Shown piece by piece: positions 1-29,724 of a stretch of DNA of 32,281 nucleotides (position 1 is its first letter; every line of letters begins with the position of its first letter). Position numbers and translations under genes: made by a program. Source of the DNA: a virus. The notes under the pieces are model-generated. The model did no database searches and was not told the origin of the DNA. It saw only the letters and a list, made by a program, of their open reading frames with translations. Location: the IMG/VR virus record IMGVR_UViG_3300044846_003029, positions 1 through 32,281 of that record; one strand, given 5' to 3'.

Positions 1-58
1 ATGGATATAACGAATCTCTTCTAAAGATTAGTTCCTAGTTCGATTCTAGGTGGGGCTA
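1..58 (+). tRNA. tRNA-Arg(UCU), 3' part (5' end outside window)
   Basis: The window opens inside a tRNA. The anticodon stem is AATCT (13-17) / AGATT (25-29) around the loop CTTCTAA, which places UCU at 20-22, with U33 before it and A37 after it. The T arm is CCTAG-TTCGATT-CTAGG (34-50), followed by the acceptor 3' strand TGGGGCT (51-57) and discriminator A58. No CCA is encoded. About 14-17 bases (acceptor 5' strand and most of the D arm) lie before the window. Its end touches the stop codon of the convergent HNH gene. AGA is a preferred Arg codon in the AT-rich genes here, so a phage copy of its tRNA makes sense. Confidence 0.85.
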
Positions 59-2385: not shown

Positions 2386-2703
2386 ATGAATTTTGAAATG
2401 ACGATAGAGGACTTTAGACAAGACAAACACAAAAGTTTTACAAAACTTGTGATCAAAGGTGTTAATTCTACTATAGATGGTGAATATACAATCAAAGAAA
2501 TGGCAAACTTTGGTAATGGTTTTTGGTTTTATACTAATGAAGCTCACACTTTAATCGGTTATGCACCTATGACAAAAGGTCAATCTGTTGACGGTTGGGA
2601 TGTTACATTCTTTAGAAATAGAACTGAGTTGAGAGTAACATACAAGTCAAACAAAAACTATATGGAAAAAAGAATCCAGGTTGATAAATTTTATTTTATC
2701 TAA
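2386..2703 (+). CDS. Unknown 105-residue protein
   Basis: No family is recognised. The sequence looks like a small mixed alpha/beta domain: a charged N-terminus, alternating hydrophobic strands (TKLVIKG, FWFYTNEA, WDVTFFRN, ELRVTYKS) and a basic tail ending in DKFYFI. It is driven by its own host-type promoter, whose -7 box ends 4 bases before the ATG. Its TAA stop is the TAA of the TAACG that opens the first hairpin site, just as in the first complete downstream unit, so it may be the remains of a further cassette. Its 5' flank matches its 3' flank only weakly, however. Confidence 0.65.
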   Translation: MNFEMTIEDFRQDKHKSFTKLVIKGVNSTIDGEYTIKEMANFGNGFWFYTNEAHTLIGYAPMTKGQSVDGWDVTFFRNRTELRVTYKSNKNYMEKRIQVDKFYFI

Positions 2704-2788
2704 CGATTGGGTGTATGAGAAGGTTTACTTAGATGGAATTTCAAATTACCACAACTATTGATAGCAAACTTTCTTATACGCCTTGTTA
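2701..2788 (+). repeat. attC-like hairpin site A (88 bp)
   Basis: Opens with TAAC, then a 5-base bulge GATTG, then the arm GGTGTATGAG..., which pairs (with G-U type changes) with CTTATACGCC, then TT and GTTA. The architecture is the same as sites B-E, but the hairpin top is longer: GGTTTACT pairs imperfectly with AGCAAACT. It marks the left edge of the five-unit array. Confidence 0.7.
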
Positions 2789-2830
2789 CCAACAGTACGG
2801 ATTATTAATATAAAACTTAAATAAAATAAA

Positions 2831-3052
2831 ATGGAAAAGAAAATCGAAAACATTGAGGATATTTGTTTAGTATATGATTATACTGGTGACACTAATAATG
2901 TTTATGTAAGAGTTTCAAAAGTTCACGAAGTAGATGAAAATGTTTATCTTAAAATACAGAACCCTGTTGTGAATAAAGGGTTACTTCAATATCAACATAA
3001 AGATTTATGTGGTACTGGTTGGGATGAGGGTGAAAAAAAATATTGTTTATAA
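2831..3052 (+). CDS. Cassette 1 product, unknown 73-residue acidic protein
   Basis: The only gene of unit 1. The sequence shows short strands (DICLVYDYTG, NVYVRVSKV, VYLKIQNP) and two Cys near the end (LCGTG, YCL), suggesting a small beta-rich fold. No family is recognised. The ORF's stop codon TAA is itself the first three bases of the TAAC of hairpin site B, a very tight packing of gene and site. The leader is A-rich with no Shine-Dalgarno and no clear TAnnTTTG box, so it may be read from upstream. Confidence 0.6.
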   Translation: MEKKIENIEDICLVYDYTGDTNNVYVRVSKVHEVDENVYLKIQNPVVNKGLLQYQHKDLCGTGWDEGEKKYCL

Positions 3053-3097
3053 CGTCTGATGATAAACAATCGTTTTAATGTTGTTTATCATTTGTTA
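3050..3097 (+). repeat. attC-like hairpin site B (48 bp)
   Basis: TAAC-GTCTG-ATGATAAACAA-TCGTTTTAATG-TTGTTTATCAT-TT-GTTA. The 11-bp inner stem is perfect, the 11-base loop is identical to those of C, D and E, and the 5/2 asymmetric internal loop is shared by A, B, D and E. Nearly the same as site E. Confidence 0.85.
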
Positions 3098-3119
3098 TGT
3101 GTATGTAAATTAATTTTTA

Positions 3120-3127
3120 TACCTTTG
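3120..3127 (+). promoter_or_regulatory. -7 box TACCTTTG inside cassette 2
   Basis: A TAnnTTTG match lies 13 bases before the ATG at 3141, carried within the cassette itself. The -33 TTG is not at standard spacing (nearest about 25 bases), so this is only a candidate. Confidence 0.4.
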
Positions 3128-3140
3128 AAAAAAAAATATT

Positions 3141-3434
3141 ATGACAACAAGAGAAATTTATTTTAAGAACTTAGTTTTTTGTGATTTACCAATGGGTTTG
3201 GTCGGCTATACCTACAAAGATAAGGATGGTGTAATTCAAATTGGTAAAGATGTTTGTTTGGAATTACGGACAGATGAGATTACTGTTGAAAAATCTGTTG
3301 AAATTATGGAAGAAATTGAAAAGACTGATGGATTTATGTTTTGGAATAACTCACCAGAAGGAGAAGAATTTTTCAAAAGTAATTGGGATGTAATTGGTAA
3401 ATCACTTGTGAGAATGGTTTTAAATCAAAAATAA
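3141..3434 (+). CDS. Cassette 2 product, unknown 97-residue protein
   Basis: A soluble, acidic small protein. An N-terminal beta-like part (REIYFKNLVFCDLPMGLVGYTYKDKDG) is followed by a helical part rich in Glu (ITVEKSVEIMEEIEK) and a C-terminal amphipathic helix. I recognise no domain. It is the only gene of unit 2, whose two ends match over 10 bases. A 23-base AT-rich stretch separates its stop from hairpin site C. Confidence 0.6.
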   Translation: MTTREIYFKNLVFCDLPMGLVGYTYKDKDGVIQIGKDVCLELRTDEITVEKSVEIMEEIEKTDGFMFWNNSPEGEEFFKSNWDVIGKSLVRMVLNQK

Positions 3435-3457
3435 TATAAAAATTAATTTATTACACA

Positions 3458-3505
3458 TAACGGTTGAGTGTAAAAAATCGTTTTAATGTTTTTTATACGC
3501 TGTTA
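3458..3505 (+). repeat. attC-like hairpin site C (48 bp)
   Basis: TAAC-GGTTG-AGTGTAAAAAA-TCGTTTTAATG-TTTTTTATACGCT-GTTA. The right arm has a two-base difference from site D, but the total length stays at 48. The flanks TACACA (left) and GCAGTA (right) belong to different cassettes. Confidence 0.85.
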
Positions 3506-3516
3506 GCAGTATGTAT

Positions 3517-3524
3517 TATTTTTG
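3517..3524 (+). promoter_or_regulatory. -7 box TATTTTTG inside cassette 3
   Basis: A TAnnTTTG match lies 25 bases before the ATG at 3550. In such AT-rich sequence the match alone is weak evidence. Confidence 0.3.
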
Positions 3525-3549
3525 TTTTACCTTAAATAAAAAATAGATT

Positions 3550-3693
3550 ATGACTTGGTTAGTATATGAAAACGCAGACGAAGCGACACAAATATTTGTG
3601 GGTGTATTATTAATATTGGCTATAACATTTGTTATTGGTGCTAATATATATTTTTGGATTTGCGATAAAATAAAAAACTCAAAACAAAAATAA
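3550..3693 (+). CDS. Cassette 3 product, 47-residue single-pass membrane protein
   Basis: ATG at 3550, TAA at 3691-3693. A short acidic N-terminus (MTWLVYENADEATQ) is followed by one clear transmembrane helix at about residues 15-37 (IFVGVLLILAITFVIGANIYFW) and a basic tail (DKIKNSKQK), so the topology is probably N-out/C-in. It is the only gene of unit 3, whose two ends match 10/10. Small membrane proteins are common cargo of integron cassettes and of phage accessory loci. Function unknown. Confidence 0.7.
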   Translation: MTWLVYENADEATQIFVGVLLILAITFVIGANIYFWICDKIKNSKQK

Positions 3694-3702
3694 TATTACT
3701 GC

Positions 3703-3750
3703 TAACGGTTGAGTGTAAAAAATCGTTTTAATGTTTTTTACACTTTGTTA
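3703..3750 (+). repeat. attC-like hairpin site D (48 bp)
   Basis: TAAC-GGTTG-AGTGTAAAAAA-TCGTTTTAATG-TTTTTTACACT-TT-GTTA, with a perfect 11-bp inner stem. The left part is the same as in site C. Confidence 0.85.
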
Positions 3751-3794
3751 TACACAGTCAAAAATTATTTATAAACAAATTAAAATCACTTGAT

Positions 3795-3989
3795 ATGGAA
3801 ATTACAAAAGAAATGATTGAAAAGGAACTTGGATATGAGATTAATAAATTCAAGTTAGAACCACTTTATAAAGATGGTGAATGTATTGGATTAAATGTTA
3901 AAGTTGAACCGAAGAAGAAACTTGAATTTATTAATACTACGATAACTATTGGTAAAACAAGTGATTTTAATACCGATGAAAAAGAATAA
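3795..3989 (+). CDS. Cassette 4 product, unknown 64-residue protein
   Basis: A small lysine- and glutamate-rich protein: an N-terminal helix (ITKEMIEKELGYEI), then two beta-like stretches (CIGLNVKVEPKK, FINTTITIG) and an acidic tail. No family is recognised. It is the only gene of unit 4, whose ends GTTATACACA and TGTGTATAAC are perfect reverse complements. No clear promoter of its own. Confidence 0.55.
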   Translation: MEITKEMIEKELGYEINKFKLEPLYKDGECIGLNVKVEPKKKLEFINTTITIGKTSDFNTDEKE

Positions 3990-4003
3990 TTTTTTATTGT
4001 GTA

Positions 4004-4051
4004 TAACGTCCGATGATAAACAATCGTTTTAATGTTGTTTATCATTTGTTA
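4004..4051 (+). repeat. attC-like hairpin site E (48 bp)
   Basis: TAAC-GTCCG-ATGATAAACAA-TCGTTTTAATG-TTGTTTATCAT-TT-GTTA. It differs from site B by one base in the left bulge. The outer flanks differ completely from those of B and match cassette 4 on the left and cassette 5 on the right. Confidence 0.85.
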
Positions 4052-4068
4052 TGTTCAGTTTTTATTTG

Positions 4069-4076
4069 TATATTTG
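4069..4076 (+). promoter_or_regulatory. -7 box TATATTTG inside cassette 5
   Basis: A TAnnTTTG match 16 bases before the ATG at 4093. It overlaps an in-frame upstream ATG (4051) that would code through the promoter, which argues for the later start. Confidence 0.45.
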
Positions 4077-4092
4077 TAAAAAAATAATTATT

Positions 4093-4266
4093 ATGGAAAG
4101 AACATTTAATAAAAAAGAAGTTGAAGAAATGTGTAAACAATCCTATATGAGAGGAATGAGTATTCAACACGACACAATGACAAAAAAGAAAATGAAACCA
4201 CCAAAGGTTTTTGTTGAATGGGTAAAACAACTTATTGATGAATGTCCAGTTGGTAAATTCAAATAA
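4093..4266 (+). CDS. Cassette 5 product, unknown 57-residue basic protein
   Basis: ATG 4093 is chosen because the promoter box lies upstream of it; an earlier in-frame ATG at 4051 begins inside hairpin site E. The protein is helical and charged (NKKEVEEMCKQSYMRGM, TKKKMKPPKVFVEWVKQLIDE), with the look of many small phage proteins that begin MERTFNKKEVEEM. No function is known to me. It is the last cassette, next to the recombinase; its 5' end GTTATGTTCA matches TGAATATAAC (4271-4280) in 9 of 10 positions. Confidence 0.6.
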   Translation: MERTFNKKEVEEMCKQSYMRGMSIQHDTMTKKKMKPPKVFVEWVKQLIDECPVGKFK

Positions 4267-4270
4267 AAAT

Positions 4271-4332
4271 TGAATATAACTAGATTATATCAACACCTAC
4301 CCAAAAACCCTCTATAAAACAACGTTTTAAAG
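4271..4332 (+). other. Degenerate end site (attI candidate) between array and recombinase
   Basis: TGAATATAAC (4271-4280) is the expected left end of a sixth site, and CGTTTTAA (4323-4330) echoes the CGTTTTAATG loop of sites B-E. Between them no 11-bp inner stem is seen. It may be a decayed site or the primary attachment site of the array. Confidence 0.35.
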
Positions 4333-5133
4333 ATGAATAAGACAAATTATTACGAAATTTGTAATCAAAAATTGAAGTATTTAAACTATTCAGATAGGAC
4401 AATAAAGTCCTATCTTTTTTATATAAAACAATTTTTGGATAATACTAAAATACCACCAACCAGACTAAAATCCGATGATTTCCAGTCCTATTTGGATCAG
4501 TATGGTTTTAAGTCTGTGTCACAACAAAACCAGGTTATAAACTCCATTAGGTTTTTATATAAATTTGGTTTGGAAAAGAAATACGACAAAGTAAGTTTCA
4601 AAAGACCAAAATCGGAAAAGAAACTACCTGTTGTTATTGATGGTGAATACATCAAAGAACGATTATCAAAAATTGAAAACCTAAAACACAAAACAATACT
4701 TACAATAACATATTCTGTTGGGTTAAGGGTGTCTGAGGTTATAAATCTAAAAATTGAGGATATTGACCCTAAAAGAATGGTAATATATATTAAAAACGCA
4801 AAAGGTAGAAAGGACCGGATTGTACCTCTATCACAAACTGTATTAGAATTATTAAGAAATTATTTCATACAATATAAACCAAAAGAATACTTGTTTAACG
4901 GACAAAATTCATTACAATATAGTTCAAATAGTTGTAATAAGATTGTTAAAAAATATTTGGGAGAACAATATCATATTCATCAGTTACGACATTCTTGTTT
5001 CACAAATCTTTTAGAATCAGGTTGTGATCTGAGAATCATCCAGAAAATTGCAGGACATAGCAATGTTAAAACTACTGAAATATATACCCATGTCTCAAAT
5101 CAAATGTTAAGTAAAGTGAAATTACCAATTTAA
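4333..5133 (+). CDS. Tyrosine recombinase (compact Xer/integrase type) beside the cassette array
   Basis: A 266-residue protein with an N-terminal SAM-like core-binding domain (about 1-90) and a catalytic domain carrying the full active site: R132 in GLRVSE, K157 in AKGRKD, H216-x2-R219 in HQLRH, H242 in GHSN and nucleophile Y251 in EIYTHV. The stretch RHSCFTNLLESGCDLRIIQ...TTEIYTHV resembles both XerC/D and IntI enzymes. Between the second and third catalytic patches (about 165-214) there is no room for the extra helical insertion of integron integrases, and the length is below the 310-340 usual for IntI. It reads in the same direction as the cassettes, as downstream neighbour. Likely substrate: the hairpin sites; alternatives are phage genome integration or dimer resolution. 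Confidence 0.9.
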   Translation: MNKTNYYEICNQKLKYLNYSDRTIKSYLFYIKQFLDNTKIPPTRLKSDDFQSYLDQYGFKSVSQQNQVINSIRFLYKFGLEKKYDKVSFKRPKSEKKLPVVIDGEYIKERLSKIENLKHKTILTITYSVGLRVSEVINLKIEDIDPKRMVIYIKNAKGRKDRIVPLSQTVLELLRNYFIQYKPKEYLFNGQNSLQYSSNSCNKIVKKYLGEQYHIHQLRHSCFTNLLESGCDLRIIQKIAGHSNVKTTEIYTHVSNQMLSKVKLPI

Positions 5134-9724: not shown

Positions 9725-10676
9725 ACAAATTCGGAAACGTCCGAAATCGTTCTTTGAAAATTTAGATTATCCTTTCAGGAGTACCAAGAGTGTCGGTGAC
9801 ATTATCCACCGAGTAAATGACAGAAAGTTCGCAGCTTAAGGAAAACTGATAAAGATATTGGGCCGTGTATAGTCCATAAAATAAACTACGAAAGTAGGAT
9901 AAAGTGAATCAGAAGTGTAACTGATTTGCGTCTTGGGAAACCGAGGTCGAGTACACAAGCGGGATACCGTTTAATCTTTAGTACCGAGGGCGACGCTGTA
10001 GGGAAAGTGGTTAGATGATTGGGCGATGTGGGTCGTCTGATTGAGGTGGGAACACCAATAGGAATAACCCGTAGGAATTTTGCAAAAAATGTGGTTATCC
10101 AATCATATTATTGCGAGTTCCAATATTAAAGGAGACTTAAAACCGAAAGGTATGTTGATGTACAGGTGGTGCTGTTATTAACCTTGACCGTTCCCCACCA
10201 AGGGATTGATCACGAAGTAGTCTTAAAATATGGAGATGGGGACATTTCAGAGAGTAGTTGAGTATCGGGTCGCTCAAAAGGTGACTTGGCTCGGTTGGCG
10301 GACCACTACTTTCACAATCCACGACACATAACTTATGGAAACTATTAATTCCCAAATTAAAAAGATCATTAAGGAAAAGTGTCCGTCAGGTCTAGTTGAA
10401 AGGTGACTACTTAGTCGTGAGCTGTTCACGGCACACAAGGATCCCAAGTCTGAGTGTAATTTTACCAAAGACCTCTAATCCCGCAAGGACGAGCTGGGGA
10501 GGCATCCTCGGAGAGAGTTGAGTAATGAGAGAGTAGATTAGACCTCAAGGAGTGGTTCACCTAAATAACCGTCACTGAGAAATACTTCTCAAAAGGAAGT
10601 GGATAGGAGTAGAAACAATAATGACTCTAAAGGTTCTCAATAAAAACTGTAATCTCAGGTTTTATTTTTACATATA
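9725..10676 (+). ncRNA. Giant structured non-coding RNA (GOLLD/ROOL-like candidate)
   Basis: About 950 bases without a credible ORF, richer in G and C than all surrounding coding DNA, starting at a strong promoter and running into a tRNA-like end and a terminator. Many local hairpins are visible: TTCGGA-AACG-TCCGAA (9730-9745), TCGGTG/CACCGA (9793-9812), CTAC-GAAA-GTAG (9886-9897), AATCAG/CTGATT (9907-9926), GGTG-GGAA-CACC (10045-10056), ACC-GAAA-GGT (10142-10151), GGTGG/CCACC (10165-10199), CGTGA/TCACG (10416-10430) and ACTTC/GAAGT (10584-10600). Three of these are closed by GNRA tetraloops. Known giant phage RNAs of this size (GOLLD, ROOL) also lie next to tRNA genes. Class membership is inference; the function of those classes is unsettled. 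Confidence 0.75.
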
Positions 10677-13567: not shown

Positions 13568-13572
13568 TACAG

Positions 13573-13973
13573 TGGAGGTGGAGGGGTTCGAACCCTCGTC
13601 CATAACATCCTGTCAGATAAGGACTACACGTTTAGGTTAACATTTTCTAATGTTCCAAAATAGTTGGTTATTTAAAATCCGATCCAACAACGGATACAAT
13701 CAAATGACCCCCTGATTGTTAGGGGTTTGTTTCTTTTCGGGTAGAAACCACACCTTAAAGGACTTCTGTTGCTAGGTTATGTGTCCACCGACCCCCCGTT
13801 TCCGTAAACTTCTTAAGCTACAGTAACATCAGAAGTACGGATTAATCCGATAGCTTCCATTTTGTTTAGCACATTGCCAGTTGTTTTTCTGAATCAGTTT
13901 TTAAGGAGATTAATTCAGTCCCCACGTGCCCTTATTCTTCAGCCGATACCTGTCAAATCCAAAAAACACCCCC
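13573..13973 (-). ncRNA. ssrA: Phage-encoded tmRNA
   Basis: The minus strand shows the complete one-piece tmRNA. The 5' acceptor GGGGGTG pairs with CACCTCC at the 3' end, including the G3-U70 pair that alanyl-tRNA synthetase needs. GGATTTGACAGG follows near the 5' end, and the T arm GAGGG-TTCGAAC-CCCTC near the 3' end, then discriminator A. CCA is not encoded. A tag frame bounded by TAA codons runs over 13870-13813. With resume codon GCT it would give AIGLIRTSDVTVA-stop, an ending unlike the usual ALAA. The 401-nt length is normal. Role: rescue of stalled ribosomes and tagging of their products. Confidence 0.93.
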
Positions 13974-28499: not shown

Positions 28500-28967
28500 A
28501 TGAAAAAGGGGAAAACCTCGAAAATTCAGGGGTTCTCAAATTCCAAAATTGTTTATGGAACTGTGGACTCAATTAATTTCAAATCACTGTATTTAAATTT
28601 ACAAACTTGGGTAGAACCCATAAAAGAACCTGAAAATTGGACAAGAATTGTTCTTAACATGAGTAGGGCGATAAAACATTCAATTTACGAAACAATCGAC
28701 AAAAATTTATTTGATGATCATTTTATTGTAGATCTCGATTTACGATCAAGTGGTTTAATCGTAGGTAAAAAATCTTTCATGAATTTAGAAGTCAATTTTT
28801 ATGTGATACATGAAGAAATTGATTTTAAAGAAAAACAAATTAAAAATAATTTAAAAGAAATTATTCAAAGGATTTATGATGAAAATTTTATAAACAATAA
28901 TTATTTTAATTTCCATTTAACTAAAGGTAAAAAAACAGAAGAGGTATTACAAACCGAAAGTGTTTAA
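28500..28967 (+). CDS. Unknown 155-residue head-block protein
   Basis: A basic start (MKKGKTSKIQGFSNSKIVYG) is followed by an alpha/beta body: VDSINFKSLYLNLQTWVEPIKEPENWTRIVLNMSRAIKHSIYETID, then DHFIVDLDLRSSGLIVGKKSFMNLEVNFYV and a helical, Asn-rich end. The pattern SLYLNLQTWV and the DLDLRSSGL block look conserved, as in small proteins next to the prohead protease in other large phages, but I cannot give a function. The next gene's late motif overlaps its stop codon. The start at 28500 has an A-rich leader. Confidence 0.6.
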   Translation: MKKGKTSKIQGFSNSKIVYGTVDSINFKSLYLNLQTWVEPIKEPENWTRIVLNMSRAIKHSIYETIDKNLFDDHFIVDLDLRSSGLIVGKKSFMNLEVNFYVIHEEIDFKEKQIKNNLKEIIQRIYDENFINNNYFNFHLTKGKKTEEVLQTESV

Positions 28968-28975
28968 TATTTATT
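28966..28975 (+). promoter_or_regulatory. Late-promoter motif AATATTTATT
   Basis: 14 bases before ATG 28990. An earlier in-frame ATG at 28960 would again be read through the motif. Confidence 0.5.
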
Positions 28976-28989
28976 TAAAAAACTTTTAT

Positions 28990-29724
28990 ATGGAACAAAG
29001 AATATTAGGACCAAATGATACAGGTAAAAAAGGTATTCTTATTGAATACGACGCTGGATACATTAATCCGAGAGAAAACGATAATCAATATATCATGGAA
29101 TCCAAATCATTTTTGGACCATTCAAAACCGTTTGAATTTTATGCGGTATTACAAAAATATAATACCCCAAATAGAAATGGTAGAATCTATCCTGAACAAA
29201 TATTAAAAAGGGAAGCTGACAATTATAAAAAAATGATTGAGAAAGGGACTTCTCTTTCAGAATTAAATCACCCCGAATCTTCACTTATAGATCTTGATCG
29301 TGTATCACATATCATCACAGATATTTGGTGGGATGGTAATGTACTTATGGGTAAACTTAAATTATTAACAAGTCCAGGTTTTCATGAAAGAGGAGTTTGT
29401 TCAACTAAAGGAGATTTGGCGGCTAATTATTTAAGACAAGGTGTAACCCTTGGGATTTCTTCAAGAGGTGTAGGGTCACTTAAAAAAGTTGGAGAAACAA
29501 ATGAAGTCCAACCTGATTTTGAATTAATCTGTTTTGATTTAGTATCATCTCCATCAACACCTGGTGCGTATCTATTCTTAAATAAAGATGGTAGATTTGA
29601 ATTTGAGGAAAACCTTGAAGAGGAAAAGAAAACAAGAATTGAAAGGGAAGTTGGTAGTAGTGGGAACGCATCGCTTGACTTAATGAAAAAATTGTCTAAA
29701 TATTTAGGAGATAAAACTAATTAA
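28990..29724 (+). CDS. Prohead protease (T4 gp21-like serine protease, S80 type)
   Basis: 244 residues from ATG 28990. Key blocks are YAVLQKYNTPNRNGRIYP (51-68), LSELNHPESS with the catalytic His H94, and TLGISSRGVGSL with the nucleophile Ser (S157 or S158), then SSPSTPGAYLF. These are the conserved features of T4-like prohead proteases, which cut scaffold, core and capsid proteins after L/I-x-E during maturation. It lies between the core-like genes and the acidic scaffold, as in T4 (21 between 68 and 22). The last 40 residues are acidic and helical and are probably self-removed. Confidence 0.9.
   Translation: MEQRILGPNDTGKKGILIEYDAGYINPRENDNQYIMESKSFLDHSKPFEFYAVLQKYNTPNRNGRIYPEQILKREADNYKKMIEKGTSLSELNHPESSLIDLDRVSHIITDIWWDGNVLMGKLKLLTSPGFHERGVCSTKGDLAANYLRQGVTLGISSRGVGSLKKVGETNEVQPDFELICFDLVSSPSTPGAYLFLNKDGRFEFEENLEEEKKTRIEREVGSSGNASLDLMKKLSKYLGDKTN

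Follow-up and report, generated by a model that had tools for sequence, protein, structure and literature searches.

Can a bacteriophage own a gene-capture platform comparable to an integron? Integrons are familiar chiefly from bacteria, where they act as platforms for the spread of adaptive genes. The question is raised by the viral contig IMGVR_UViG_3300044846_003029 of IMG/VR, analysed over its whole length of 32,281 bp (the window) and containing terminase, portal and head protease genes. Between a 105-aa gene and a tyrosine recombinase gene, it carries five small genes, each with a TAAC...GTTA hairpin site on its 5' side. A preliminary description took this arrangement for an integron-like array with its own recombinase inside a phage genome. 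Loss, gain, exchange and re-ordering of units among relatives support this view, and the locus very probably represents a phage-encoded integron-like system consisting of an array and its own recombinase. Sequence comparison shows the sites, the insertion site attI, the own-end complementarity of the units and the covariation of the hairpins, as well as re-ordering in near-identical phages, transfer between distant phages and breakpoints at TAAC.

The five units together span positions 2704–4279 and are bounded by TAAC...GTTA hairpin sites, all features of the locus lying on the plus strand. The fixed left flank of the array is the 105-aa phage gene (2386–2703), for which the TAA that opens the first attC-like site serves as stop codon. 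The five small-gene units reported earlier were confirmed. The constant length of 48 bp attributed to the sites holds for four of them, sites 2 (3050–3097), 3 (3458–3505), 4 (3703–3750) and 5 (4004–4051), and fails for site 1 (2701–2788), which measures 88 bp and follows the same plan, TAAC-5 nt-stem-loop-stem-2 nt-GTTA, with a longer loop. Counted from AA^C to AA^C, the units are cassette 1 (2704–3052; open reading frame (ORF) 2831–3052, 73 aa), cassette 2 (3053–3460; ORF 3141–3434, 97 aa), cassette 3 (3461–3705; ORF 3550–3693, 47 aa), cassette 4 (3706–4006; ORF 3795–3989, 64 aa) and cassette 5 (4007–4279; ORF 4093–4266, 57 aa). The last cassette is separated from the start of the recombinase gene by attI (4277–4332), which reads TAAC followed by TAGATTATATCAACACC... 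and is also written as TAAC followed by TAGATTATATC. The recombinase gene reported after the array is indeed present (4333–5133); it encodes 266 aa with the catalytic residues kept, and its product is the proposed cassette integrase.

The two ends of each unit are complementary to one another. When the 10 bases from GTTA onward are compared by direct reading with the final 10 of the unit, taken in reverse complement, cassettes 1–5 match at 8, 10, 10, 10 and 9 of 10 positions, of which only six per unit are informative since GTTA is invariant; this recount returned the same set as before. Cassette 5 was scored up to the TAAC at 4277–4280, after which no hairpin follows. Flanks match their own unit in related genomes as well: the match run beyond TAAC/GTTA reaches at least 4 in 78 of 142 units of related loci (55%), against 6.6% with shuffled partners. 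In the last units, which end at attI (n = 38), the mean match is 5.18 of 8, compared with 3.10 after shuffling (maximum 3.76 in 2000 shuffles). Own-end complementarity is above chance both within units and at attI.

Related loci were collected from IMG/VR, 15 with the recombinase alone and 80 with its alignment (at least 57% identity; contigs up to 362 kb). These relatives were picked by similarity to the window's recombinase, so that counts among them are not unbiased frequencies; sites were detected by a simple hand-made stem rule, and the contigs are metagenomic fragments, several loci being one contig under different identifiers. A pattern search among viral contigs with the 48-bp core, as had been suggested, matched at least 118 stretches. 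Judged by these sequences, at least several dozen other uncultured phages appear to carry such a platform. The recombinase of locus L120 is 99% identical to that of the window; both flanks are common to the two loci, and the sites and cassettes are different. On the left, L120 has the same 105-aa gene, the last ~150 bp of which are identical up to TTATCTAACG, with divergence straight after TAACG and a 48-bp site where the window has the 88-bp site 1. On the right, identity resumes from TATAACTAGATT on. In cassette 1, the 3' part of the gene is 100% identical to L120, while the 5' part and the hairpin are replaced. The cassette 4 region (3688–4054) is 98.9% identical in L012 and L021, hairpin included.

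Exchange and re-ordering are clearest among L117, L155 and L164, which are 97–99.9% identical right of attI. Blocks P1, P2, Q, M, X, T and B are 99.6–100% identical among these phages and differ in order and number: the array reads (T)-P1-P2-Q-M-X-T-attI in L117, A-B-M'-X-T-attI in L155 (M' being 94% identical to M) and B-T-P1-P2-Q-M-K-attI in L164. Cassette T adjoins attI in two of the three and is internal in the third, with joints exactly at TAAC. Cassette 5 of the window (4004–4280) is 97.5% identical to an internal cassette of L117 and L164, phages whose recombinase genes are 73–74% identical to the window's and which show no alignment with it outside the array and recombinase. Its identity with L117 spans from the hairpin to TATAAC and ends there, followed by attI in one phage and by a hairpin in the other. 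Homologous recombination fails to explain joints at attI, because attI and the hairpins have only TAAC in common. Re-ordering and shared cassettes are best read as direct signs of site-specific exchange, and cassettes are gained, lost and re-ordered at the sites as in integrons. The same small cassettes occur in different orders in near-identical phages, and the platform therefore appears to have been active recently. The earlier proposal of a working or recent gene-capture platform agrees with the unit loss, gain, exchange and re-ordering seen in relatives; the same genes in the same order in all relatives, an outcome that was looked for, did not occur.

The insertion point itself is defined by a conserved motif. 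TAAC followed by TA..ATATA, or close variants, lies 41–98 bp before the recombinase start in nearly all of the ~80 loci, and in 68 distinct sequences of the motif TAACTA..TATAT, TAAC is conserved at 97–100% and the later TATA at 100%. The sequence just before the TAAC agrees with the start of the last cassette and is not fixed (38 last units). This pattern suggests that the motif upstream of the recombinase is the constant part of the insertion site, here named attI; a fixed attI next to the integrase gene is a feature of integrons. At least one attC-like site was detected in 54 of the 80 loci, upstream of attI and on the same strand; same-strand sites downstream occur in just two of the loci.

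Arrays start with flank-TAAC-hairpin and finish with hairpin-gene-TAAC-attI. The unit is therefore best taken as a hairpin with the gene that follows it, joined at TAAC, most simply at AA^C, on its side nearest the recombinase. Cassette genes do not read away from attI as in integrons; in 146 of 155 units they read toward it. The crossover had been placed at G^TT; the attI joint instead makes AA^C the best placement, and on the same joint the classic polarity, with attI left of the array and units bounded at G^TT, was rejected. Among the alternatives, the one that survives best is the same system with its crossover at G^TT and a unit consisting of a gene and its downstream hairpin. G^TT is the classic crossover point, the downstream hairpin is conserved in two pairs of shared cassettes, and hairpin leaders joined at GTT to many bodies make some exchange at GTT possible. 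This arrangement is nevertheless unlikely: arrays end hairpin-gene-TAAC-attI with an own-end match to attI, and the left flank stops at TAAC before different hairpins, an order not produced by G^TT insertion at a fixed attI.

Folding of the sites agrees with the hairpin-first layout. In DNA folding, the gene-coding (top) strand forms both R and L stems and the opposite strand only the L stem, a contrast that is clear in three of the four sites examined and weak in site 3, which has the weakest hairpin and mosaic L arms. Site 2 forms R and L stems on its top strand at -9.2 kcal/mol (z -4.5). The top-strand fold is helped by G.T pairs, formed by a near-invariant G after TAAC and a T before GTTA, and has a 3-nt bulge. 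Classic integrons use the bottom strand, as defined by reading from attI into the array. In the phage array, the same geometric strand is the gene-coding one, and this strand would recombine as a single-strand fold. In a covariation set of sites chosen by the loop tip alone, with no stem requirement, 96% of cells are paired and both-sided changes occur in 10 of 11 L-stem pairs, giving a score of 0.481, compared with 0.132 after shuffling and at most 0.109 after sliding. As in integrons, the cassette array is split by structured attC sites with R''/R' complementarity. An Rfam search gave no match to the sites.

Many stems that are otherwise unrelated end in one constant 11-nt loop, TCGTTTTAATG; sites 2–5 of the window have this tip. 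Of 198 distinct occurrences of CGTTTTAATG, 179 show precisely this 11-nt tip flanked by complementary arms. The tip was also observed in L122, L156, L160, L169, L177 and others, with a variant, GCGAA(G/T)CGAACGTTTTAATG, in L183 and L194. Gene-less mini-cassettes of 29 bp, GTTAnnnnn-tip-nnnnnTAAC, hold the tip between R arms in about 17 cases, a class that was assigned automatically and may contain one or two errors. The constant tip may have a bearing on how cassettes are made. In 46 further-extended sites (mostly ~115–160 bp), found in loci that include L128, L142, L146, L156, L172 and L165, the loop supplies a start codon and encodes a leader peptide whose reading frame stays open across the L' arm and GTT. 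These leaders end ...ISDV at the L' arm/GTT and continue into different cassette bodies; their families comprise MKDLxHIKRFNESEENLNISDV, MEEVNKNTxLDNTDKKLHISDV and MSKEMR..LTESENLNISDV. ORFs in frame through the 48-bp sites were considered as leaders and set aside as incidental, true leader-type sites being ~115–160 bp long. The position of the genes behind the hairpins suggests that each cassette may have its own promoter.

Cassette cargo consists mostly of small proteins without recognised function (median 92 aa). Recognised products include D12 and N6/N4 DNA methyltransferases, RNA ligase, GNAT, YopX, an exoribonuclease-like protein and a phosphatase-like protein. Several cargo N-termini in L138, L155, L156, L165, L196 and L198 read MKxLRxFIxTTIREYLNE or similar, a possible resemblance to the capsid-targeting sequences of T4 type, which have an LxE protease site. 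Such a likeness in some leaders or cargo N-termini tentatively suggests that cargo might be packaged and injected. The window carries a prohead protease gene at 28960–29724.

The recombinase is intact and matches PF00589 (4e-37). Its catalytic R-K-H-R-H-Y residues are present and all invariant in the alignment of relatives, which lie beside attI and arrays, as expected of a tyrosine recombinase such as IntI. Profile scores are 187 bits for NF040815 (XerA) and 157 bits for TIGR02249 (IntI), both below cut-off, the IntI cut-off being 265 bits. IntI is defined by an additional domain around patch III (PMC9668308). Between the two matched stretches, the phage enzyme has 37 aa, compared with 85 in IntI4 (2A3V), and the insertion is present in aligned IntI of Gammaproteobacteria and Bacteroidia and absent in all aligned phage rows. 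By this defining insertion, the recombinase appears to fall outside the IntI family, and membership was rejected on the absence of the IntI-specific domain. In the free tree, the IntI clade stands apart (100/98), and the phage enzymes group with L214–L216, none being nested inside IntI; a constrained tree with IntI and the phage enzymes as one clade is not rejected (approximately unbiased test, p-AU 0.61). Structure prediction (pLDDT 81, pTM 0.58; 9 sequences) yielded a model whose nearest folds are XerA and IntI4. Some of the nearest matches in cellular genome sets are phage-like themselves. One of them, L215, adjoins ORFs that, read by eye, look like terminase, portal, protease and capsid genes, and it is likely a relative inside a Sunxiuqinia prophage.

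The absence of the IntI domain also bears on a possible bacterial origin. With two mismatches allowed, the 48-bp site pattern was found in a single one of 395 Bacteroidia genomes, where it lies on a small contig. IntI scores over its cut-off in 1 of 295 Bacteroidia genomes, compared with 88 of 229 in a gammaproteobacterial sample. The system does not appear to be a copied bacterial integron, because the IntI domain is absent and both the site and IntI are rare in Bacteroidia; a host origin of the sites was rejected on the single match among the 395 genomes searched. This match (L281, 1501–1548 of a 3-kb stretch) comprises a cassette and the attI-like TAACTAACATATA, with no recombinase seen in the stretch, which may be a piece of a prophage. 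Less probable still than a G^TT crossover is a passive cluster of attC sites lacking an integron integrase (CALIN), derived from a host integron and moved by host IntI in trans beside an ordinary phage integrase. CALINs have been described in phages, and some phage attC sites are substrates for IntI1 (PMC9892861); many site-bearing phages, including the huge ones of 462 kb and 635 kb, also have no full recombinase of the window's family in the searched record. The rarity of site and IntI in Bacteroidia, the presence of recombinase and attI at the array end across the family, and a cassette pool common to different phages all speak against such a cluster. Finally, attI could be the attP of a resolvase or lysogeny integrase, accompanied by terminators or REP-like (repetitive extragenic palindromic) repeats shuffled by homologous recombination. 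XerA/XerD-like integrases fill such roles, some homologous recombination is suggested by mosaic hairpins that share a tip, and L215 lies in a likely Sunxiuqinia prophage. This reading is nevertheless highly improbable: cassette T directly adjoins attI in one phage and sits within the array of another, a difference that homologous recombination could not easily produce with only TAAC common to attI and the hairpins, and unit-specific end matching has no role in terminators.

Several observations weigh against a phage-owned integron with hairpin-first units. Polarity depends mainly on the attI joint; among shared cassettes, the upstream hairpin is conserved in five pairs and the downstream one in two; and cassette 1 and some hairpins are mosaics from other events. 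Moreover, a full recombinase of the window's family was found in only about 8 of the 46 site-bearing virus records checked, and the huge-phage records LR756500 (462 kb) and LR745206 (635 kb) have sites and no full recombinase of the family in the searched record. Fragments and remnants account for some of these records. G045, G023, G006, G019, G011 and G030 are site-bearing phages with recombinase fragments or frame-broken remnants and are probably decayed platforms. Phage record LR756504 gave a weak match, with no site detected near it.

In the phage-encoded system proposed here, the recombinase would recognise both the fixed double-stranded attI just upstream of its own start and the attC-like hairpin sites brought by each cassette. 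A cassette would consist of a hairpin and then one small gene, with complementary ends (R' and R''), which in an excised circle would come together again as a single stem; this stem would have a loop, a 5/2-nt spacer and the two arms bound by the recombinase (R and L). Joining would link AA^C in the folded cassette site with AA^C in either attI or a further cassette, so that cassettes would enter beside the recombinase. The phage enzyme would catalyse this attI x attC joining, and the empty site would be the flank TTATCTAA joined to CTAGATTATAT. Cassettes could be excised, re-inserted, duplicated and, presumably as circles, exchanged between co-infecting phages.

Outside the locus, the window contains a GOLLD RNA (10250–10661, plus strand, 328 bits), a phage tmRNA gene (13570–13973, minus strand, 110 bits) and a tRNA match at 1–58 (plus strand), truncated by the contig start.

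Bacterial integrons (classes 1–3 and sedentary chromosomal) share with this system a tyrosine recombinase read away from the adjoining attI, tandem small-gene cassettes, exchange at a fixed core and imperfect AAC/GTT hairpins with own-end complementarity. The phage system differs in that it is phage-borne, its recombinase has no IntI-specific domain, its cassette genes are directed at attI and have the hairpin on their 5' side, its sites have a 5/2 spacer and no single extrahelical L-stem base, and many of them have a constant 11-nt loop. Viewed on the opposite strand, the layout is classic (G^TT lies at attI and each cassette has its hairpin at the end remote from attI) with one inversion, that of the cassette genes. 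Qi et al. 2023 (PMC9892861) reported that temperate phages can carry complete integrons and virulent phages CALINs, with 3 complete integrons, 1 In0 and 17 CALINs among 10,705 phage genomes searched with bacterial IntI/attC models; some were clear pieces of host or class 1 integrons. Arrays of attC-like sites in phages are common to both studies, whereas the window's phage recombinase family, with its own attI, recurs in dozens of phages. XerA and archaeal Xer-like enzymes (NF040815; PDB 5HXY, 4A8E) are the closest sequence models and structures; unlike the phage enzyme, they resolve dimers at dif and have no cassette arrays. The reverse-oriented IntI of Spirochaetota (PMC9668308) is another departure in relative orientation, but there the integrase is reversed, whereas in the phage the cassette genes are the reversed part and the integrase is oriented as in classic integrons. 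Among open-licence PMC papers, no phage-specific integron integrase was named and no description was found of a recombinase family that belongs to phages and has an attI of its own, together with inverted cassettes and hairpins that encode leaders, although unpublished or preprint work may exist.

The phage system thus appears to work like an integron with a recombinase that fails the IntI test. Tentatively, it could be a second, phage-specific kind of integron, with a non-IntI recombinase, inverted cassettes, hairpins that give promoter, start codon and leader peptide, and in-frame leader-cargo fusions swapped between phages. The finding bears on the origins of integrons and on the need for the IntI-specific domain in recombining folded sites, and, through an 11-nt loop on many unrelated stems and gene-less mini-cassettes, on the making of cassettes. 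Common among phages of the environment, a phage-owned integron would directly drive the exchange of genes from virus to virus and would act as a store of small genes without known function.

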